Source: Herpetosiphonaceae bacterium (GTDB lineage Bacteria; Chloroflexota; Chloroflexia; Chloroflexales; Herpetosiphonaceae). Taken from it: DNA of 64,000 bases. The DNA is taken from assembly GCA_013538855.1 (NCBI GenBank), contig JABXJS010000247.1, positions 1 through 64,000 on the forward strand, given 5' to 3'. This document shows, one piece after another, positions 19,258-32,593 of this stretch. The stretch's first letter is position 1. Every line of letters starts with the position of its first letter. The translations under genes were made by a program, and so were the position numbers. The notes under the pieces are model-generated. The model was not told the DNA's origin and searched no databases. It saw nothing but the letters and a program-made list of their open reading frames with translations.

Positions 19258-19941
19258 ATGGCTCAGACGATTTTGATCATCGAGGACGAGCGCAAGATCG
19301 CCGTCGGCCTACAAAATTATCTTGAGAGCGCCGGATACACGACCTTCAGCGCCAGCGATGGCCTGACTGGCCTGCAGATGGCGCGGCGCGAGCGGCCTGA
19401 CCTGATCTTGCTTGATGTGATGCTGCCAGGCATGGACGGCTTTAGCATCTGCCGCACACTGCGGGCTGAGTCGAGTGTGCCCATCATTATGTTGACTGCT
19501 CGCGTCGAAGAAGTCGATACGCTGCTCGGTCTGGAGCTAGGGGCCGACGACTACATCGCCAAGCCCTTCTCGCCGCGGCAGGTGGTGGCGCGGATTAAGG
19601 CGGTGCTGCGGCGCGCCGGTGGCGAGCTTCAGCCACCAGAGGTGCTGCGAAAAGCCGATGTTGAGATTGATCTCCAGCGGCGCAGCGTCAGCGTGCAGGG
19701 AGCTGAGATCACCAGCCTCACACCAACCGAGTTCGATCTGCTGGCCACGCTGATGCGCAACGCCGGCCGGCCGCAAACACGCGGGATGCTGCTGGAGTCG
19801 CTGCAGAGCCATATCAGCGAGGCGTATGATCGCACGATCGACGCGCATATCAAGAACCTACGGCGCAAAATCGAGCCAGATGCCGCCAACCCGCAGTACA
19901 TCGTGACCGTCTTCGGCGTTGGCTATAAGTTTGCCGAGTAG
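19258..19941 (+). CDS. OmpR/PhoB-family response regulator
   Basis: A 227-residue transcription factor. The receiver domain (1-120) has the acidic pair in IIEDERK, phosphoacceptor Asp53 in LILLDVMLPGMDG, and the switch Thr and Lys in MLTARVEE and YIAKPFSP. The C-terminal winged helix (130-225; LTPTEFDLLATLMRNAGRPQ) is of the OmpR type, which binds direct repeats with an 11-base period. The kinase gene follows 105 bases later. Such a repeat lies before the secreted nuclease at 21478-25500, which converges on this pair, making it a possible target. Confidence 0.93.
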   Translation: MAQTILIIEDERKIAVGLQNYLESAGYTTFSASDGLTGLQMARRERPDLILLDVMLPGMDGFSICRTLRAESSVPIIMLTARVEEVDTLLGLELGADDYIAKPFSPRQVVARIKAVLRRAGGELQPPEVLRKADVEIDLQRRSVSVQGAEITSLTPTEFDLLATLMRNAGRPQTRGMLLESLQSHISEAYDRTIDAHIKNLRRKIEPDAANPQYIVTVFGVGYKFAE

Positions 19942-20046
19942 CCCAGCGGCAATGTCACGCGGTCGTGTAGCCGGCGAGCGCGCGCATGCGCACCAGCGCA
20001 AGGGCCGCTAGCAGGGAGCAACGCTTAAGCACAGCGCTGATCATCT

Positions 20047-21408
20047 ATGAACCTTCGCACAAAACTTATTTTGACGCACACCGTTGTGGCGCTGATCGCC
20101 GCCGTGCTGGTGGCGCTGATCGCCAGCGTTACGGTCAATCGCTACTTTGTCCAGCTGGCCAACGCCCAGGCGCGCGCCGAGGCTGAGCTATACGCCGAGC
20201 CGCTGGCCTACTGCTATGCGCTCAACAATGGCTGGCCAAACCGCCTGAACGAGTGCCTGCGCCCTGGTCGCGGCATACGCCCGGCGCTCGCGCCCGACAG
20301 CAACCGCCGCACCGTCGTGGCCGACGCATCTGGCACGATTATTTTTGACCCTGGCGGCCACCGCGAGGGCAAAAAGCTCCCAGCCAACGCGCTCAACCGT
20401 GGCACACTGATCAAGGTGGGCGATCAGGTGGTAGGCAGCGTGATCGTCGAGCCGAACACTGGTCAATATGGGGCCGCCGAAGATCAATTTATTAAGCTTG
20501 TGCGCCGCAGCGTGCTGCTTGGCAGTATTGGCACCGCCGTGCTCGCATCGCTGATCGCAGCCATGCTCTCGCTGCGCGTGACACGCTCGCTGCGCACGCT
20601 CACCGGCGCGGCCTACCGCCTAGCCCAAGGCGACCGCAGCGCACGCGTTCCCGTCCATAACAACGATGAGGTCGGCGAGCTGAGCCACGCCTTCAACACC
20701 ATGAGCGACGCCCTAGAGCGCAGCGAGTCCGTGCGGCGCCAGATGGTCGCGGACATCGCCCACGAGCTACGCACGCCGCTGAGCGTGCTCCAGCTAGAGC
20801 TAGAGAGCCTGGAGGATGGCGTAACTCAGCCTACGCCTGAGGTCATCCGCTCGCTTGGCGAAGAGGTTGAGCTGCTCAAGCACCTTATCACCGACCTGCG
20901 CACGCTATCGCTGGCGGATGCTGGCCAGCTGCCACTGAACATGAGCGCTGTCGATATTCAGCCCCAGGTTGACCGTCTGCTCGCCCGCATGCAAGGCCCG
21001 GCCCGCGATAAAAACATCACGCTGACCGCGCAGGTTGCCGCCGACCTGCCACCGATTTACGCCGACGCCGCCCGCCTGCAGCAGGTGATCGGCAACTTGC
21101 TGCAGAATGCCATTCGCTACACGCCAGCAGGCGGCAGCGTCATGCTAGAGATTAAGCAGCGCCAGCAGCAGGTTGTCTGGGTTGTGCGCGACAGCGGGCC
21201 TGGCTTTGATCCCGCTGAGGCACAGGCGATCTTCGAGCGCTTTTACCGCAGCGACCGGGCGCGCGCGCGGCACACCGGCGGCAGCGGCTTGGGGCTGGCG
21301 ATTGTGCGCAGCCTGACCCAGGCGATGCAGGGCCAAGTTTGGGCCGAAAGCCAGCCAGGCCAGGGGGCAACCTTCACCGTCGCGCTGCCGATTGCCGCGA
21401 CAGTCTAA
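20047..21408 (+). CDS. Membrane sensor histidine kinase
   Basis: A 453-residue kinase. Segments: TM1 about 9-30, an extracytoplasmic sensor of about 125 residues, TM2 about 156-178, HAMP 178-232 (RSLRTLTGAAYRLAQGDRSA), HisKA with phospho-His239 in ADIAHELRTPLSVL, and HATPase with N box NLLQNAIRYTPAGG, G1 DSGPGFDP and G2 GGSGLGLAIV. All active residues are present. It resembles BaeS-type kinases in layout. It partners the response regulator just upstream. The signal is unknown; the sensor domain has no recognised fold. No strong ribosome binding site is near the ATG. Confidence 0.92.
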   Translation: MNLRTKLILTHTVVALIAAVLVALIASVTVNRYFVQLANAQARAEAELYAEPLAYCYALNNGWPNRLNECLRPGRGIRPALAPDSNRRTVVADASGTIIFDPGGHREGKKLPANALNRGTLIKVGDQVVGSVIVEPNTGQYGAAEDQFIKLVRRSVLLGSIGTAVLASLIAAMLSLRVTRSLRTLTGAAYRLAQGDRSARVPVHNNDEVGELSHAFNTMSDALERSESVRRQMVADIAHELRTPLSVLQLELESLEDGVTQPTPEVIRSLGEEVELLKHLITDLRTLSLADAGQLPLNMSAVDIQPQVDRLLARMQGPARDKNITLTAQVAADLPPIYADAARLQQVIGNLLQNAIRYTPAGGSVMLEIKQRQQQVVWVVRDSGPGFDPAEAQAIFERFYRSDRARARHTGGSGLGLAIVRSLTQAMQGQVWAESQPGQGATFTVALPIAATV

Positions 21409-21477: not shown

Positions 21478-24400
21478 CTACTTGAGCACCAGCGGCAACA
21501 ATACCCGATAGCTCGGGGCTGTGCCCACATTCACATCGGGTGCGGTCAAGGTATACGTGATACCCTCGGCGACCAGCGTGGCTGTGTTGCTAATGATGCC
21601 CGCGAAGGTCGGCGCAACCTGAACTGTGATGTGATAGGTGATCTGGCTATCAGCATCGATCAAGCCCGTCGCCGTCACCGTCTGACCATTGACGGTCATG
21701 CCGGGAGCGTCGAGCACGGTCAAGTTGGCGTCGAGCACATCGGTGAGGGCGAAGGTTGTGCTCATCGAGCCAGTGTTGGAGACGTTGAGCGTGTAGGTGA
21801 AGACCTCGCCGCCCATCACATTCAGGCTGCTCACCGTCTTGCTGGACGCGCTCAGGTCAGAGCTGGGCAGCGGGATGACCGTCACCGCTGGCGAGGTGAG
21901 CGTGTAGGTAACGCCATCAGCCACCACCTGCGCAATGTTGGTGATCGAGCCAGCGAACGACGGATCAGTGCGCACCTCGATCTTGTAGGTGATCTGGCTG
22001 TTGGCATTGACCGTATCGGAGGCCGTCACGGTCTGGCCGTTGATGGTCATGCCAGGTGCGCTGACAATCACCAAGTCGCTATCGAGCACATCGGTGAAGG
22101 CGAAGGTCGTCGCCGCCGTGCCTGAGTTCGAAATAGCGATCGTGTAGGTGAAGACATCGCCAGCTACCACATTGAGGTCGCTGGGCAGCTTGCTGGAGCC
22201 GCTCAGATCGGACGAGCCGCCCTGAGCAGTCACAATCACTGGATCAGCGTTGAGTGTGTATGTCGCGCCGTTGGCCGAGACCGTGGCGGAGTTATTAATG
22301 GTGCCACCGAAGCTGGTTGAGGTGTTGACAGCGACGGTGTAGACCACCGCGCTGTTGGCAGCAACGGTGCCGCTGGCGCTGAGCGTCTGGCCGTTGACGG
22401 TCATGCCAGGCGCGCTAACCACGTTCAGGTTGAAATCAAGCACATCCGTCACCATGTACGTGGTGCTCATCGTGCCCGAGTTGGAGATGGTGATGGTGTA
22501 GGTGAACACATCGCCGGCATTAACCGCACTGGTGTTGACCGTCTTGGATGAGCCGCTTAGGTCAACCGTGCCGCCCTGAACCGCGAAGGTGAAGCGAGCG
22601 ACCTGCGGATCGTGATCGCTGACGCCACGTGCACCGTCGCCCTCATAGTCGGCGGGCCAGTCGGCGTTGACGTGGGCCGCGCGCATCGTGACCAGCGTCG
22701 CGCTCAGCGATTCGGTGATGAACAGGTGATCGAGGGTCTGGGTCTGGCCCTGGAACTCGTAGCTGTAGGCGCTCGACGGTGCCTCGGCCACCAGGACATC
22801 CCACAGGTTATTGAGGCCCTGATCGTAGAGGCCGCCAAGCTGATCGGATTGGCCGGGGGCCGGGAACGGATCATCGGGGCGCGGGAAGACGTTCAGGTCG
22901 CCGCCGACCACAACCTTGACAGCGGGATTGATTTCTTCCTGCAGCTCGTTAACGATGGCGGCATCGTAGTTGGCCTGCTCGGTGCGCTGCTCGACACGGC
23001 CATCGGGGCCGCTGCTGAAGTGGTTGGCGATCACGTACAGGTCAACCGAGTCGCCCTGGTTCAGGCCATCGCGCCAGATGCGGAACAGACCGACCTGCGG
23101 CGAGCGGGTGTAGATGTTGTTGCCATCGGTCGAGCCACCGACAAAGTCTGGCAGCGTCGCGTTCAGCGATTTGGGGTTCTGGATGTCGGCGTTGAACTCC
23201 AGCGGAATCGCGCTTGAGTCGTAGGACAGGGTGGGCGACATGCCCAGCACCGGATCGCCGACGGCGGGCAGCAGTTCAACGCGGTCGGTGCGATAGAGGA
23301 AGGCCGAGACAATGCCGCGGTCGTCAGCGCCATCGCGGTCGTTGGCGGCATCATAGGCCGGGCCACCCTGAGCCGCGATGACCAGCGCCAGCTCCTGCAG
23401 CGTGTCGGGCTTGCCATCGGCGTTATCCTGGGTGCCGCAGACCAGCGCGCCGTTATCAACCGAGCAGATGTCCTGATCCTCGGCCTCCTCGATCGTGAGG
23501 ATGTCGGGGGCGTGCAGATCGGTGATCACCTGAGTGGCGATGCCATCGAGGTGATCGAGGTACGCCTGCTCGCTGGTTGGCACGTAGTCAAACGGCGGGG
23601 TGACGCCGGGGCAGCCAGCATTGCCAGCGAAGTCACAGCCATCGTTGGGATCATCGCGGAAGTCGTACAGGTTCTCGACGTTGTAGGTTGAGATACTGTA
23701 CTCCTGGCCGCGATCAAACGGCTGCGGCGGGTTGTTGAGCGCAGGATCGAGGCCGTGAACCAGCTGCGGCTGCTCCGTAACCTGGATCATGTACTTGTTG
23801 AACGAGTAGTAGACACCACCAGAAAGCGTGTTGGTGATCGTGTCGTAGGTGCGGGCGGGAGCCAGCAGCGCGGTGCTGTCGTTAACGGTGTCCTTGATGC
23901 CTAAGCTGGCCATCAAGATGCGGAAGCCGTTGCCATCGTCGAACAGCTGGCCAGGATTGTTGTCGCAGGGATGCGCATCACGGTAGACGCGCTCGGCGTA
24001 GGGGCTGGTGCAGGTGGTTAGCTGCACATCATCGCGGACAACCCAGACCTCGGCGTCGTAGGTGCTGCCGAAGACATCGCGGCCGCCGACGACCTCGGTG
24101 TTGGCCGGAATCTGGCCGCGCATACCCTCGTGGCGCTCCCAGTAGAGATAGGCGTCGCTGAGGAGAGCTGGCGGATTGACATCGAAGCCAGGCACCTCGG
24201 CGTCAACATCCACATTGCTGCGGATGACCACCACATTGCTCACGCTGGAAAGCTGGGTCAGATAGAAGTACTCGGCAACACGCGAGGTGATGATGATCTC
24301 ATCGCCAACCTGCGGCGTGTAGCCGGCCACGGTGCCGCTGCTGCCAGCGAACACGAAGATACCGTCGGAGGTGTTCGGGTCGCTGTCGGCGGTGGCGGCG

Positions 24401-25500
24401 GTATTTTGAATAAAGAAGCCGTAGTTGGTAGCGCCGCTACTCGTGCGCGACTGCACGCGCTCGTAGACGACGCCCTGCACCGTGACGGCGGTGGTTCCGG
24501 AGCCATTGCCTGAGGCAGGCGCAAACGGCGAGCGGTGGGTCTGCGGATTGTCGCCATTGGCAACCGCGCCCTGTACCTCACCGATTGGCTGAACAGTGGG
24601 CAGCGCCTGGACGTTGATCGACACCGTGCAGGTCGCAGTGAGGTTAGCATCGTTGGTGAAGGTCAGCTCGGCGCTGTAGGAGCCTTGCGGCACCGTGTCG
24701 GCGATCTCGAGCGTAGCCGTGATATAGTTCGACGTGGTCAGCGGGTTAGTCAGCGTGATGCCTGCCTGGCTAGGCGTGACCAGCAGCGCGACACTGCCGA
24801 ACTCGTTATCGGCATCGTAGGCCGAGACCGTCACCGTCTTAGCGTAGCCAACGTAGACGTTGACCGTGGCCGGGCAGGAAGGCAGAATTGGCTGATCGCC
24901 GCCAGCCAGCGTATGCCAGCCAAGGCCATCGAAAGTATCGTTCGCATAGCCGTCCCACTCGACGGCGGGATCAAAGGCATCGTTGGGGTTGGTGTCGCCA
25001 GCTTGAATGGTGGGCTTGCGGCGCAGCGTCTGATCGGCTGTACCAAGAGTATTATCGCCCCATTCGGAGCCAGGATCGAAGCCAACTTGGCCGATAACGT
25101 CGATCACGACACCGTTCTTCTTAAGCACAATTGCATCATCGCCGTTGAAGAAGGTAACAGTTGACGTGACGTCAGCCTGATCCAAGATCGCTTGAACAGC
25201 AGAAGAATTCGCGATGACATACACATCGCCATCGGCGACTGTACCAGTCATGTTGAGCGTATTATTTGGAGTTGAAGCACCATTTGCATACAGTTCAACT
25301 CGATAGTTACCAGCGGCCAGATCGACCGGCGCGCCGGTGCCGTTATAGATTTCCAACGCCTTATTGTTGCTAGACCCCTCGATATACTCCGAGAAAAACA
25401 GCTCGGTGGGGGCTGCAGCAGCGGAGCGGGTGGCGGCGGGCAGCAAAAGCCCGAGCGTCAACACGCCCAGCACCAACATACGAACTAACTTTGAAGCCAC
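21478..25500 (-). CDS. Secreted multidomain nuclease with LTD, EEP and three DUF11 domains
   Basis: A 1340-residue secreted protein, GTG start at 25500 behind GGAGG. A signal peptide (1-29, ending AAAA) is followed by a lamin-tail domain (31-200; ELFFSEYIEGSSNNKALEIY), an Ig-like stretch (205-300), an OB-like part as in YhcR/ExeM nucleases (305-590), and an endonuclease/exonuclease/phosphatase domain (about 600-975) with STYNVENLYD, TIEEAEDQD, GDLNVFPRP and SDHDPQVARF, so catalytic Asn, Glu, Asp and His are all kept. Three DUF11 repeats of about 118 residues follow, and the chain ends YRVLLPLVLK. ExeM/NucH-type enzymes degrade extracellular DNA. Its promoter has Pho-box-like repeats, fitting a role in phosphate scavenging. 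The DUF11 stalk probably lifts the enzyme off the cell surface. Confidence 0.88.
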   Translation of the reverse strand: MASKLVRMLVLGVLTLGLLLPAATRSAAAAPTELFFSEYIEGSSNNKALEIYNGTGAPVDLAAGNYRVELYANGASTPNNTLNMTGTVADGDVYVIANSSAVQAILDQADVTSTVTFFNGDDAIVLKKNGVVIDVIGQVGFDPGSEWGDNTLGTADQTLRRKPTIQAGDTNPNDAFDPAVEWDGYANDTFDGLGWHTLAGGDQPILPSCPATVNVYVGYAKTVTVSAYDADNEFGSVALLVTPSQAGITLTNPLTTSNYITATLEIADTVPQGSYSAELTFTNDANLTATCTVSINVQALPTVQPIGEVQGAVANGDNPQTHRSPFAPASGNGSGTTAVTVQGVVYERVQSRTSSGATNYGFFIQNTAATADSDPNTSDGIFVFAGSSGTVAGYTPQVGDEIIITSRVAEYFYLTQLSSVSNVVVIRSNVDVDAEVPGFDVNPPALLSDAYLYWERHEGMRGQIPANTEVVGGRDVFGSTYDAEVWVVRDDVQLTTCTSPYAERVYRDAHPCDNNPGQLFDDGNGFRILMASLGIKDTVNDSTALLAPARTYDTITNTLSGGVYYSFNKYMIQVTEQPQLVHGLDPALNNPPQPFDRGQEYSISTYNVENLYDFRDDPNDGCDFAGNAGCPGVTPPFDYVPTSEQAYLDHLDGIATQVITDLHAPDILTIEEAEDQDICSVDNGALVCGTQDNADGKPDTLQELALVIAAQGGPAYDAANDRDGADDRGIVSAFLYRTDRVELLPAVGDPVLGMSPTLSYDSSAIPLEFNADIQNPKSLNATLPDFVGGSTDGNNIYTRSPQVGLFRIWRDGLNQGDSVDLYVIANHFSSGPDGRVEQRTEQANYDAAIVNELQEEINPAVKVVVGGDLNVFPRPDDPFPAPGQSDQLGGLYDQGLNNLWDVLVAEAPSSAYSYEFQGQTQTLDHLFITESLSATLVTMRAAHVNADWPADYEGDGARGVSDHDPQVARFTFAVQGGTVDLSGSSKTVNTSAVNAGDVFTYTITISNSGTMSTTYMVTDVLDFNLNVVSAPGMTVNGQTLSASGTVAANSAVVYTVAVNTSTSFGGTINNSATVSANGATYTLNADPVIVTAQGGSSDLSGSSKLPSDLNVVAGDVFTYTIAISNSGTAATTFAFTDVLDSDLVIVSAPGMTINGQTVTASDTVNANSQITYKIEVRTDPSFAGSITNIAQVVADGVTYTLTSPAVTVIPLPSSDLSASSKTVSSLNVMGGEVFTYTLNVSNTGSMSTTFALTDVLDANLTVLDAPGMTVNGQTVTATGLIDADSQITYHITVQVAPTFAGIISNTATLVAEGITYTLTAPDVNVGTAPSYRVLLPLVLK
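21530..22573 (-). repeat. Three in-gene repeats encoding DUF11 domains
   Basis: Units at about 22573-22217, 22216-21862 and 21861-21530 encode three similar domains. Each starts near SDLSGSSK and carries AGDVFTYTI, SNSGTMSTT, VTDVLD, APGMTVNGQT and GVTYTL-like phrases. They arose by duplication and differ at many positions, so they are not recent copies. Confidence 0.8.
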
Positions 25501-25619
25501 GTTGTTCCTCCATTGAACAGGTGAGCGATACAGAAAACCGCCGCATTCCAGCCTGAAATGCGCAGGTACAATCAGGCGAGCAAGAAGTGCTCCTCAACTC
25601 CTGATCGTCGCCGCTGCGC

Positions 25620-25657
25620 ATCATAGCAAGGTCAAACGACGGTTAACGTTAGGTTAA
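25620..25657 (-). promoter_or_regulatory. Pho-box-like triple direct repeat and -10 of the nuclease gene
   Basis: Plus-strand units GGTCAA (25630-25635), GGTTAA (25641-25646) and GGTTAA (25652-25657) lie exactly 11 bases apart. On the coding strand they read TTAACC, TTAACC, TTGACC, then an extended -10 TGCTATGAT (TATGAT at 25620-25625). RNA would start near 25613; the units then cover about -17 to -44, where OmpR/PhoP-type activators bind in place of a -35. Confidence 0.6.
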
Positions 25658-25744
25658 TTCTGTTCATCAGCACGAGTCTACCATAAGGCTCGTATAGCGG
25701 CAAACATGCCTCTACAAGCGCGTTCACCTGTCAGGGGTTTTTCA

Positions 25745-25773
25745 TTGCAGGAATACCTAGCCTATGCTACTAT
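25745..25773 (+). promoter_or_regulatory. Promoter of the beta-helix gene
   Basis: TTGCAG (25745-25750), 17 bases, TACTAT (25768-25773) with an upstream TGC making an extended -10. RNA would start at about 25780-25781, right at the ATG, so the mRNA may be leaderless. Confidence 0.55.
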
Positions 25774-25780
25774 TCAAGGG

Positions 25781-27496
25781 ATGAATACGACACCACTCCC
25801 GCCGCGCGGCCCCAAACGCTGGGTAACGGGCGCTACCAAACAAATATCCTCTTTCCGTCAAGGGCGCGCCGTCGGCTGGATTCGATCCAATGCGATGCTG
25901 GTAATTGCGCTTTTTCTGCTGGTGTTCGTTGGGCTGCTCAGCCTGATCAGCCAGAATGACCAGGCGCTCGATACCACGCAGCCAACAGCCACCTATCTGG
26001 CGATTGCCAGCCCCACGCTTGACCCGGCGCTGCAAGCACTCACGCCATCGCCGCCAACGCCTGAGGTAAGCGCCATTGCAGCAGCTGGCACACCAACACC
26101 GACACCAACATTTGGCCAAATTGGGCCACCTATTCCGTCGACGCCTGGCGCACGGGCCACGCCGACCACGCTGGTCAGCGAAGAGTGCCTCGACGGAGCC
26201 TATCCGTTCCCAAGCAACGAGCCATGTGCGGTCGGCGCAGCGCCGACGCTGCCACCATTCCCCACGCTACCGCCGATCACGGAGCAGCAGCCGACGCAGC
26301 CAAGCGGGCCAGCCTTCCCAACCTCGCCGTCAGGCTTCCCGCCGCCGCAGGGGCGCGTAACCGCCGTCCCAACCGATGAGCCAGAGCCAACCGAAGACCC
26401 ATATCCGGTGATCGATCAGCCAACCGATGAGCCAACCGACGAGCCATTCCCCACCGTGGAGCCGGAGGAGCCGGATTTCCCGACCAATATCCCCGTCCCA
26501 ACCGACGAGGTTCCCGACGAGACGGTCGAGCCAACAGCAACCGAGATCCTAGAAACACCGACGCCATCGGCAACGCCAACGCCAAGCGCTAACTATATTG
26601 TCAGCGACACGCACTGGACCATCGCCAACAGCCCGGTGATGCTGCGCCGCGAAACGGTAGTGCGCGCCAACACAACGCTGACCATCGATCCAGGCGTCGA
26701 GGTGCAGGCTGCGCCGGGCGTGTCGCTCGTGGTCGATGGCATCGTCAATGCCAATGGCGCGCCCGGCAATCCGGTGCGCTTCCGGCAGCTCACGGCGAAC
26801 AGCCCATGGAACTCGATTGTGGTCAACCCACGCGGGCGTGCCAACCTCAACGGCGTCGATCTGCGCGGCGGCGGATCAAGCGGCGTGATCGTTGCCGCAC
26901 TTGGCGGCGATACGGTCATCAACGACAGCTACATCGAGGCCAAGGGGCAGGTGCTCGGCGCAGGTGGCAACTTGGACATCCAGCGCTCGCAGATCGTCGG
27001 CCCATCGCCGGTAAGCGTCGCCATCCCTGACGGCGGCAAGCTGCGGCTGATCGACAATCGCATCACCAACACATCAACCAGCGGCGGTAACGCTGTCGCC
27101 CTCAGCACCATCAGCTCCGAGGTCACGCTCGATGTGCAGGGCAACCGCATCGCCAGCAGCAGCGGCACCAACCTCCAGGCGCGCCTTGACCAAACGCTCA
27201 CAGCATCGTTTGAGTGCAATACCTTCAAGGGCGGCGCTGTGGGCCTGCTGATCAAGACCGACGACCCAACGCTCGACGGCTCAACAATCGCGATCAAGAA
27301 CAACAACTTTTTGAGCCATAAGGTCTATGGCCTGGCCTCGGATGTGCTGATCGACGGACGCTACAACTGGTGGGGCGATCCATCAGGGCCATACAACACC
27401 GAGACCAATGCGAATGGCACAGGCGATGCCACCGGCGTCAATGTGCCCTTCCACCCCTGGCTGACCAGCAGCTCCGGCTGCGCGCCAGCACCATAG
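25781..27496 (+). CDS. Membrane-anchored Pro/Thr-rich protein with right-handed beta-helix
   Basis: A 571-residue protein, ATG at 25781 with AAGGG just upstream (an in-frame ATG at 25706 lies before the promoter). A basic N-terminus, one membrane segment (about 38-57; AMLVIALFLLVFVGLLSLI), then about 200 residues rich in Pro, Thr, Glu and Asp (PTDEPEPTEDP-like phrases), a likely extended wall-spanning stalk. Residues 268-571 form a parallel beta-helix of the NosD/pectate-lyase type, with GVEVQAAPGVSLVVDGIVNA, many short I/V-x-x-N turns, and the end motif YNWWGDPSGPYN. Helices of this type bind or cut polysaccharide or serve as surface structure; no catalytic set is clear. It diverges from the secreted nuclease gene. 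Confidence 0.82.
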   Translation: MNTTPLPPRGPKRWVTGATKQISSFRQGRAVGWIRSNAMLVIALFLLVFVGLLSLISQNDQALDTTQPTATYLAIASPTLDPALQALTPSPPTPEVSAIAAAGTPTPTPTFGQIGPPIPSTPGARATPTTLVSEECLDGAYPFPSNEPCAVGAAPTLPPFPTLPPITEQQPTQPSGPAFPTSPSGFPPPQGRVTAVPTDEPEPTEDPYPVIDQPTDEPTDEPFPTVEPEEPDFPTNIPVPTDEVPDETVEPTATEILETPTPSATPTPSANYIVSDTHWTIANSPVMLRRETVVRANTTLTIDPGVEVQAAPGVSLVVDGIVNANGAPGNPVRFRQLTANSPWNSIVVNPRGRANLNGVDLRGGGSSGVIVAALGGDTVINDSYIEAKGQVLGAGGNLDIQRSQIVGPSPVSVAIPDGGKLRLIDNRITNTSTSGGNAVALSTISSEVTLDVQGNRIASSSGTNLQARLDQTLTASFECNTFKGGAVGLLIKTDDPTLDGSTIAIKNNNFLSHKVYGLASDVLIDGRYNWWGDPSGPYNTETNANGTGDATGVNVPFHPWLTSSSGCAPAP

Positions 27497-29491: not shown

Positions 29492-32400
29492 TTAGCCGAC
29501 CGAGCCTTCCATCTCCATCTGGATGAGGCGGTTCAGCTCAACGGCGTACTCCATGGGCAGCTCGCGGGTGAACGGCTCCATGAAGCCGAGCACGATCATC
29601 GACAGGGCCTCGGCCTCATCAAGGCCACGGCTCATGAGGTAGAACAGCTGCTCCTCGCCGATCTTGCCGACGGTGGCCTCGTGGGCGACGGTGGCGCTAT
29701 CCTCCTCGATCTCGATGTAGGGGATGGTGTCGGAGGCCGACAGCTCATCGAGGATCAGCGCATCGCAGACCACGTTGATCTTGGCGTTGGTCGCGCCCTT
29801 CTGGACCTTGGCGAGGCCACGGTAGGTGGTGCGTCCGCCGCCCTTGGAGACCGACTTATTGGTGATGCGGCTGGTCGTGTTGGGCGCGGCGTGCACCATC
29901 TTCGCGCCGGCGTCCTGGTGCTGGCCGTGGCCGGCGTAGGCGACCGAGAGCACCTCGCCCTTGGCCCCGTTGCCGAGCATATAGACAGCGGGATACTTCA
30001 TTGTTAATCGGGACCCGATGTTGCCATCCACCCATTCCATCGAGGCGTCCTCGTAGGCGACGGCGCGCTTGGTGACGAGGTTGAAGATATTGGGTGCCCA
30101 GTTCTGGATGGTGGTATAGCGGCACTTGCCGCCCTTCTTCACGATGATCTCGACAACAGCGGAGTGCAGCGAGTTGGTAGTGTAGACAGGCGCCGTGCAG
30201 TTGTGCGAGACCACACCCTCGGCGACATAGCTCTCGTCCTCTTCCACCGAGAAATTGAACACCTCGGTCTCGACATCATCGACCACAATCTCACGGATGG
30301 GAACATAGAGATAGTGCTCGTCGAGCTGGAATGGCGAGCCGCTCAGGCTGCCAGCGGGAGCAGCGACCCCGACGATATCGCCAAAGCGCGGATTGCAGGG
30401 CGATGAGACCACAACGGTGTACATCGGCTGGCGCGGCTCGCCGCGCTCCTGATAGTTGATCGAGGCCACCACGCCAAGGCGCAGGAGCGCATCACGGAAG
30501 GCATAAGCGAGCTGACGCGAGATCGTGTTGTAGCGGAACATATTCTTTGTCGCATCGTAGCTGCCATCGCCGCACCACATGCCGCGCACCAGCTGGGCCA
30601 GCAGCTCACGGGGAGCGTTGAGCACCCAATCTGGCACGTGCTTGTCGTAGGCGGTTGAGCCAAAGGTGTAGGCAAACGCACGGGCAGCCTCGGTCGAGCA
30701 AAGCACAAGGCTCTGGCCGTTCTGGCGCTCGGCGTTAGCGATTGGAGCCTTGCCGAAGTAGCGCTCCAGCAGCTCGGCGCTATCGGCCAGATACTCCTGC
30801 TCGTTGACGTGGAACGAGAGCGTCAGATAGTGCTCGTTGCTGACGTGGCCCTCGGCGAAGTAGTAGCCAAGCAGGCGATAGAAATCTGGCTCCTGCGCAA
30901 AGCTAATCTCGCGCTGAGTTGCATCGGAGCGTCCGTGAGCGAAGGGAATAACCACGCTGGGCGGGGTAGCCGACTGGCTCTCGGGCTTGGCAATCGGGAT
31001 GGCCAAGTAATCGCCCTGCTTAACCATCGAGGCCAACATCCACTCTGGCTGGAACTGGCGATTGCGCTCATTGGCGCGGTCGCGGCGCACAACCAGCAGC
31101 GGGTGCTCCTCGGTGACATTCAGGGTCTGGGTGCTATCGCCAAAGTAGCGCAGCGAGTAGAGCTTACCCTGATAGGGGCGGCGCATCGTATTGTAGACCT
31201 TGCGGTAGCGGCCCTTGTGGGTCAGCACCTCATCGCCAACCTGAATATCCTCGATGGCCTTCTCGCCTTGGCGCGTGCGGACGCGGGCACCAGCGGTGAA
31301 GCAGCCCTCAATGTAGTGCGCCTCGGCACCCTCCTCAATGATGATCAAGGTGCGCTCGAACTGGCCCATGTTCTCGGCGTTGATGCGGAAGTACGCCTGG
31401 AGCGGAATATCGACCTTGACGCCCTTGGGCACATAGACAAACGAGCCGCCAGACCAGACCGCCGTGTTGAGGGCGGCGAACTTGTTGTCGGCGGAGGGAA
31501 TGACGGTGCCGAAGTACTCCTTGATGATCTCGGGGTGCTCGCGCAGGCCGCTGTCCATATCGAGGAAGATCACGCCGAGCTTCTCCCACTCCTCGCGGAG
31601 CGAGTGGTACACCACCTCGGAGTTGTGGACAATCAAACCCTCGGCCACGAAGTTGTGGGGACCGTCAACCTCAATATCGTACACCATCTCCACGCCAGCC
31701 GGGGTGATCGAATCAATCTTGACAAACCCGTCGAACTCGGGCACATATGGCTCAGGCAGGTTAATGTCGTTGTAGCGTGAGGAGATGTCTAATTCGTATT
31801 CAACAGCCTGGTTGCGACCTATCACTGTGGTCTTAATTTCTGGCTGCTGAAGCTCATAGAGCACGCCTGTGTCAGGCAGATCCTTAGCCACAGCGACGAG
31901 ATCGCCTACTTGCAGCTCGTGCAGATACTTCCAGGTGCGCGTGTAGCGACCGCGCTGGCGATCTTCAGGCTTCGCGTAGGCTAGCGTCAAAAATGGGTGG
32001 TTCGACGTAGCTTTGATCCGGCGAGTGCCGACGCGCACCTCGAAAACCTCACGCTCGCCCTTCTCAGCGGTGGCGCGAACTTCGGCAGCGATAATCTGGT
32101 TGGCCTCCTCATCGAACGAGTACACCACGTCGCCAGGCTGGATGTCGCGGATCGGCACCAAACCTTTATTGGTGAAGACCCGTGAATCACCGCTGAGGCA
32201 CTCATATTGTGCGCCTACGCCGGCCAAGAACTTGCGCTCGGCCTCGGGGATGCCCAGGCGCTCGAAGGTGTTTTTGATCGACTCGGGCACATCGTCCCAG
32301 TCGCGCTCGGCGCGCTCGCCGGGGCGCACATAGTAGTAGATATCTTGGAAGTCCAGCTCGGCCAGCTCGGGGTTGGCCCAGGTGCCCTGGACGGGCAGGG

Positions 32401-32593
32401 GCTTTTTATTGAAAATCTCCAGGGCCTTGAGGCGGCGCTGGAGCATCCACTCCGGCTCGCCCTTCATCTTCGAGAGGGTGCGCACGACCTCCTCGTTGAG
32501 GCCCTTGGCGGACTTATAGGCATAGTTTTCTTCGTCGCGGAAGCCATATTTTGAATAATCGAAGTTCAGATCGTTCTCGGCAGGGTTTGACAT
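29492..32593 (-). CDS. Fe-S cluster assembly protein SufB interrupted by two inteins
   Basis: SufB is the scaffold subunit of the SufBCD complex, on which clusters are built. The open frame is 1033 residues; removing two inteins (residues 132-324 and 431-798) leaves 131+106+235 = 472 residues, the normal SufB length. Exteins carry the family phrases YYYVRPGERAERDWDDVP, WSGGSFVYVPKGVKVD, CTAPVYTTNSLHSAVVEI and MSRGLDEAEALSMIVLGF. The first intein interrupts QYE/SEVVYHS, the second EG/CTAP; both are highly conserved spots. Active SufB therefore needs two splicing events. ATG at 32593 lies behind GGAGG. It is the sixth gene of the suf operon, after sufU, and a terminator follows at once. Confidence 0.95.
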   Translation of the reverse strand: MSNPAENDLNFDYSKYGFRDEENYAYKSAKGLNEEVVRTLSKMKGEPEWMLQRRLKALEIFNKKPLPVQGTWANPELAELDFQDIYYYVRPGERAERDWDDVPESIKNTFERLGIPEAERKFLAGVGAQYECLSGDSRVFTNKGLVPIRDIQPGDVVYSFDEEANQIIAAEVRATAEKGEREVFEVRVGTRRIKATSNHPFLTLAYAKPEDRQRGRYTRTWKYLHELQVGDLVAVAKDLPDTGVLYELQQPEIKTTVIGRNQAVEYELDISSRYNDINLPEPYVPEFDGFVKIDSITPAGVEMVYDIEVDGPHNFVAEGLIVHNSEVVYHSLREEWEKLGVIFLDMDSGLREHPEIIKEYFGTVIPSADNKFAALNTAVWSGGSFVYVPKGVKVDIPLQAYFRINAENMGQFERTLIIIEEGAEAHYIEGCFTAGARVRTRQGEKAIEDIQVGDEVLTHKGRYRKVYNTMRRPYQGKLYSLRYFGDSTQTLNVTEEHPLLVVRRDRANERNRQFQPEWMLASMVKQGDYLAIPIAKPESQSATPPSVVIPFAHGRSDATQREISFAQEPDFYRLLGYYFAEGHVSNEHYLTLSFHVNEQEYLADSAELLERYFGKAPIANAERQNGQSLVLCSTEAARAFAYTFGSTAYDKHVPDWVLNAPRELLAQLVRGMWCGDGSYDATKNMFRYNTISRQLAYAFRDALLRLGVVASINYQERGEPRQPMYTVVVSSPCNPRFGDIVGVAAPAGSLSGSPFQLDEHYLYVPIREIVVDDVETEVFNFSVEEDESYVAEGVVSHNCTAPVYTTNSLHSAVVEIIVKKGGKCRYTTIQNWAPNIFNLVTKRAVAYEDASMEWVDGNIGSRLTMKYPAVYMLGNGAKGEVLSVAYAGHGQHQDAGAKMVHAAPNTTSRITNKSVSKGGGRTTYRGLAKVQKGATNAKINVVCDALILDELSASDTIPYIEIEEDSATVAHEATVGKIGEEQLFYLMSRGLDEAEALSMIVLGFMEPFTRELPMEYAVELNRLIQMEMEGSVG
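30200..31303 (-). mobile_element. SufB intein 2 with LAGLIDADG homing endonuclease
   Basis: Residues 431-798 (368 aa). Block A starts CFTAGARVRTRQGEKAIEDI, block B holds TEEH, block F is NFSVEEDESYVAEG and block G ends VVSHN before extein Cys799. Between the splicing blocks are two LAGLIDADG-like helices, LLGYYFAEG and LVRGMWCGDG, each with an acidic residue at the expected place, so the endonuclease could be active. The insertion site EG/CTAP is the one I know from mycobacterial SufB inteins. Confidence 0.93.
31622..32200 (-). mobile_element. SufB intein 1, mini-intein without endonuclease
   Basis: Residues 132-324 (193 aa). Block A starts CLSGDSRVFTNKGLVPIRDI, block B is ATSNHPFL (TxxH), block F MVYDIEVDGPHNFVAEG, and block G LIVHN before extein Ser325. 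No LAGLIDADG motif is present between blocks B and F, so it is a splicing-only element. It uses Cys at its own start and Ser as the downstream nucleophile, unlike intein 2 (Cys/Cys). Confidence 0.93.

Follow-up and report, generated by a model that had tools for sequence, protein, structure and literature searches.

The window, by which we mean the whole 64,000-nucleotide stretch of DNA analysed, belongs to contig 207 in the 6.3-Mb, 285-contig genome of a Herpetosiphonaceae bacterium, and its G+C content is 63.5%. It carries a gene for a secreted nuclease and a divergent beta-helix-like gene, with a short array of direct repeats between them. The features of the locus are the following.

19258–21408, plus strand: response regulator and kinase, BaeR/BaeS-like by family matches, not the best candidate for the array's regulator
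21478–25500, minus strand: secreted protein with LTD, EEP-nuclease and DUF11 parts, ExeM/NucH-like by domain matches, the presumed target
25619–25624, minus strand: position of a fourth unit from the four-unit alignment, degenerate in the window (ATGATG) and overlapping the -10-like TATGAT
25620–25625, minus strand: extended -10-like TGC-TATGAT, seen in the sequence 4 bp past unit 3, putative start
25630–25635, minus strand: Pho-box unit 3, TTGACC, 11 bp from unit 2
25641–25646, minus strand: Pho-box unit 2, TTAACC, 11 bp from unit 1 and aligned with the relatives' arrays
25652–25657, minus strand: Pho-box unit 1, TTAACC, aligned with unit 1 in the relatives' pst and nuclease arrays
25675–25703, minus strand: promoter-like element TTGCCG-N17-TAGACT upstream of the array, its spacing conserved in relatives
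25745–25773, plus strand: conserved promoter of the divergent gene, TTGCAG-N17-TACTAT
25781–27496, plus strand: divergent beta-helix-like gene, with its ATG at 25781

The nuclease gene has a GTG start with GGAGG upstream, and its product has a signal peptide, an LTD domain, an EEP nuclease region and DUF11 repeats. The match to NF033681 (ExeM/NucH) is full length (E 6.7e-35), at 121 bits versus a cut-off of 300; the same-locus nuclease of one relative (genus g4 below) scores 631 bits, above the cut-off. The leader of the gene includes a terminator-like hairpin with a T-rich tail (25542–25562, minus strand), for which the chance expectation in that stretch is 0.5. Elsewhere in the window, a SufB gene (29492–32593, minus strand) is in three pieces with two intein-like insertions, which show intein N- and C-terminal splicing regions.

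On the nuclease strand, the array reads TTAACC taacg TTAACC gtcgt TTGACC ttgc TATGAT (25657–25620). The units begin at 25657, 25646 and 25635, a tandem direct repeat with an 11-bp period. The original prediction, made from the letters of the window, had placed GGTCAA at 25630–25635 and GGTTAA at 25641–25646 and 25652–25657, exactly 11 bp apart, and had described an extended -10 (TGC TATGAT) 4 bp past the array and the absence of a usual -35. The repeats are present as described, TATGAT lies at 25625–25620, and no sigma-70 -35/-10 pair passes a scan of 25450–25850. The same prediction called the two-component genes the next locus; they do adjoin the nuclease gene, but at its 3' end, convergent with it and away from the array. 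As a control site for the divergent gene the array was considered and set aside, because a conserved promoter belonging to that gene lies 72–87 bp away. The ATG lies 7 bp past that promoter, and the mRNA is probably leaderless.

The rarity of the array was computed with a test pattern, TTAACN6TTAACN6TTNAC, derived from the window array alone. At up to one mismatch, the window contains a single match and 100 shuffled versions of it contain none, and no second site comparable to the array was found within the window. The whole 6.3-Mb genome contains one exact match, which is the window array, and one match at one mismatch, which lies in a pst promoter (C261:39557–39583); the reversed pattern, used as a control, has no match at up to one mismatch in that genome. 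The pst site is about 110 bp upstream of the start of pstS, in a cluster ordered pstS-pstC-pstA-two pstB-like genes-phoU. A genome-wide motif search near phosphate genes had been proposed as a check on the prediction, and the sole other match within one mismatch turned out to be this pst-phoU promoter of the same genome. Because a pattern taken from the window only finds the pst promoter, we read the array as a phosphate operator, and this is the strongest non-circular evidence for doing so. At two mismatches there are more matches in this genome, of mixed value; two are inside genes (L004, L005), and others are upstream of unrelated genes. Another of these matches is an array-like site (L006:1501–2069; TTTAACACAATCTTTACTCAGGATTTAATC) that lies 116 bp before the gene for a secreted protein that is truncated at the contig end and has no family match.

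The relatives are taken to be of the family Herpetosiphonaceae and are numbered here by genus: g1 is the window genome, g2 is G001, g3 is the Herpetosiphon-like group G002–G007, and g4 is G008, an incomplete genome. At their pst operons, g1, g2 and g3 have TTAAcA ... TTAACA ... ATCA ... TTAA, with 9 bp from the array to a -10 that is TACAAT in g1 and g2 and a weaker TAGACT in g3. Four units, 9 bp and a -10 are the usual form in the set. At the nuclease locus, all six g3 genomes have TTAACC atcag TTAAAG cagca TTGACA tgcgg TTTATC, and g4 has TTAATC caagc TTAAAC ctata ATCAGC aaggc TTGATA, followed after 9 bp by TATGAT. The third unit of the window has TTGACA as its counterpart in the g3 nuclease promoters and an ATCA-type unit in the pst arrays. 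The divergent neighbor is kept in g3 and g4, its protein being about 41% identical to that of the window. No TTAAC array comparable to the window's was found in front of the homologous nuclease genes from actinobacteria and Anaerolineae (the Longispora start is uncertain). Since the same site precedes the phosphate-uptake genes of this bacterium, and also the matching nuclease in seven related genomes (the six of g3 and G008), the array very probably mediates control by phosphate starvation. The pst copy and the conservation in three genera support the predicted Pho-box-like site, of the OmpR/PhoB family, before a putative phosphate-scavenging nuclease.

A four-unit pattern drawn from the pst and nuclease sites was searched in nine genomes. 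Its exact matches are confined to pst and nuclease promoters, a partly circular result because the pattern came from those sites; there is one mismatch at the g4 nuclease and two at the window nuclease, where the fourth unit is degenerate. Weaker matches occur in g3 upstream of phoX, and in both g2 and g3 upstream of a second gene of the PBP type (PstS-like). Single weak matches in g3 mean little since, in these AT-richer genomes, weak-match counts do not exceed those of the reversed-pattern control, and the case for the array within g3 rests on conservation and not on pattern counts. These counts, together with the frequency of TTAAC words in AT-rich DNA, speak for the rival view that the array is a functionless chance run of TTAAC-like hexamers. 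We regard that as exceedingly improbable, given the G+C content of the window, the shuffles without a match and the retention of the array at the nuclease promoter in three genera while the surrounding DNA diverged.

When the window site was withheld from training, a matrix scored over 487 kb of strand-positions at partly preselected loci placed it third with three units and only sixth with four. We therefore read the window array as a real but divergent member; it is the weakest copy in the set, with three units and a degenerate fourth. A sequence-only covariance model built from the pst arrays was too specific, being confident only on pst sites. Matches of the Herpetosiphon type upstream of a small lipoprotein gene (L109, L110) and of another gene (L111) were rejected, as they look like ordinary promoters with TTGACA at -35 distance from TATAGT or TATATT. 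There is also a four-unit-like site before a zinc carboxypeptidase (M14) gene (L227:1723–1759), slightly varied in all six g3 genomes and possibly due to chance.

In the window, 4 bp separate the array from the -10-like box, versus 9 bp at pst in g1 and g2 and at the g4 nuclease, a difference of half a turn. Just upstream of the array is the promoter-like element, which reads TTGCCG-N17-TAGACT in the window and TTGCCC-N17-TATAGT in some g3 genomes. Its core, TTGC-N14-TATGGTA, has a fixed spacing in g1, g4 and the six g3 genomes; 13–17 bp separate its -10-like box from the start of the array. Because of this conserved element, a two-promoter arrangement or repression is possible: the array would still be a Pho box, with the bound regulator blocking or retuning the upstream promoter so as to repress transcription or switch its start point. 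The fixed spacing and the unusual 4-bp distance to TATGAT would suit such an arrangement. We nevertheless consider it rather unlikely, since the g4 nuclease array has the pst-like 9 bp to TATGAT, the known nucleases of Pho regulons are induced and not repressed, and the upstream element matches sigma-70 promoters weakly and fails the scan. Activation of the nuclease by a Pho regulator at low phosphate is likely the correct model and is the simplest one.

The OmpR-type regulators of the genome include at least 16 full-length ones that match the PhoB model; the regulator of the window (19258–19941) ranks ninth of these. The original prediction had named this regulator as the binder of the array. 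It adjoins the nuclease gene, and OmpR-family proteins have a common geometry of 10–11-bp repeats, which would fit this pair as well. Control of the nuclease by the adjacent pair through the array is nonetheless very improbable. The best family matches of the pair (19258–21408) are BaeR and BaeS, without a pst link, and no array was found upstream of the regulator's own gene. Orthologues of the pair exist in g3 at an unrelated place; in G002, they are 3.4 Mb from the nuclease, with which the array has remained. The array is moreover common to pst, and it is another pair that genomic context ties to pst, so the identification of the window regulator as the binder is not supported.

That other pair is encoded at C129:20558–22440. 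Its regulator (21766–22440) is nearest to RegX3 among solved structures and is 91% identical to its g3 counterpart and 77% to its g2 counterpart. The kinase has a PAS domain and is nearest to PnpS and PhoR, at scores below the curated NCBIfam cut-offs. In g2, a sister genus, phoU of the pst cluster is followed immediately by the orthologue of the regulator and then by the kinase, and a pair of the PhoB/PhoR type is present in all genera except in the incomplete g4 genome. No array was found upstream of the C129 regulator gene; therefore, the usual autoregulation is not indicated for it. The C129 pair is most likely a better candidate than the pair in the window.

Taken together, it is quite probable that the array is the operator of a phosphate-starvation regulator of the PhoB/RegX3 type that activates the secreted nuclease at low phosphate. 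The regulator would most likely be the one at C129:21766–22440, acting with its PnpS/PhoR-like kinase. We infer that, under phosphate limitation, the regulator in its phosphorylated form binds head to tail along the 11-bp repeats. The bound regulator would substitute for the -35 element and recruit RNA polymerase to the nuclease gene, with transcription presumably starting from the TATGAT box. The secreted nuclease, if it has the activity its domains suggest, would then degrade extracellular DNA as a source of phosphate.

The enzyme appears to have a different history from its promoter. Residues 27–970 of the window nuclease share 55% identity with an Asanoa protein (mostly 50–65% to proteins of Asanoa and Anaerolineae), and residues 182–973 and 204–970 are 53% identical to Anaerolineae/Chloroflexi proteins. 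Versus the nucleases at the same locus in g3 and g4, residues 27–970 are mostly 13–30% identical, which places the core of the protein (residues ~27–970) in a different ExeM/NucH-like clade. The C-terminal repeats are 43–51% identical to those of g4. Since the promoter, the neighbor and the start region are shared with the relatives, an exchange in place is likely, and we conclude that the core was probably replaced at the locus. DUF11 repeats are mobile, and therefore the DUF11 tail by itself is weak evidence for this exchange. We are evenly divided on a broader reading, by which the control region (the Pho array, the upstream element and the divergent neighbor) and the DUF11 tail were kept while the LTD domain and nuclease core were swapped, so that the promoter and not the enzyme would be the conserved unit of the locus.

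Several known systems resemble this arrangement. The PhoP box of Bacillus subtilis has TTAACA-type repeats, which the g1 and g2 pst arrays resemble in their TTAACA unit and 5-bp spacers, although the candidate regulator here is nearer to the RegX3 and PhoB types. The Pho box bound by PhoB in Escherichia coli consists of at least two direct-repeat units of 11 nt, and its -10 is about 10 bp downstream (PMC4415409, PMC1906773). The array shares the 11-nt direct-repeat units but differs in unit sequence and in its distance to the -10-like box, which is 4 bp in the window and 9 bp in the relatives. In Synechocystis PCC 6803, the phoA-nucH operon is under SphR through the Pho box CTTAACCT, with a 3-bp linker (PMC1906773). 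There, as here, TTAAC-type direct repeats with 11-bp phasing precede an extracellular nuclease gene as well as the pst/sphX operons (PMC1906773). The organisms are of different phyla, however; the window nuclease is encoded by a lone gene whose divergent neighbor is beta-helix-like, and its site is a predicted one, whereas that of Synechocystis is under SphR. In Vibrio cholerae, also of another phylum, xds encodes an LTD-OB-EEP nuclease induced through PhoB on phosphate limitation (PMC6746945). The window protein is likewise a predicted secreted nuclease with LTD and EEP parts, but it has DUF11 repeats; the likeness concerns the proteins.

A literature search, with most subscription journals outside its reach, found no Pho box described in Chloroflexota or Herpetosiphon, and no Pho regulon either. 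Judging from the sequence comparisons, the array is very probably a true Pho box, conserved among relatives, that precedes a secreted nuclease gene. Switches of this kind are known; the search turned up no account of one in this lineage. It gives a testable Pho box and the outline of a Pho regulon for a family of Chloroflexota, comprising pst, the nuclease, phoX, the second PBP-type protein and the regulator pair. The link of the TTAAC-type Pho box with secreted nucleases would be extended beyond the cyanobacteria, and the arrangement suggests that extracellular DNA is a source of phosphate for these bacteria.
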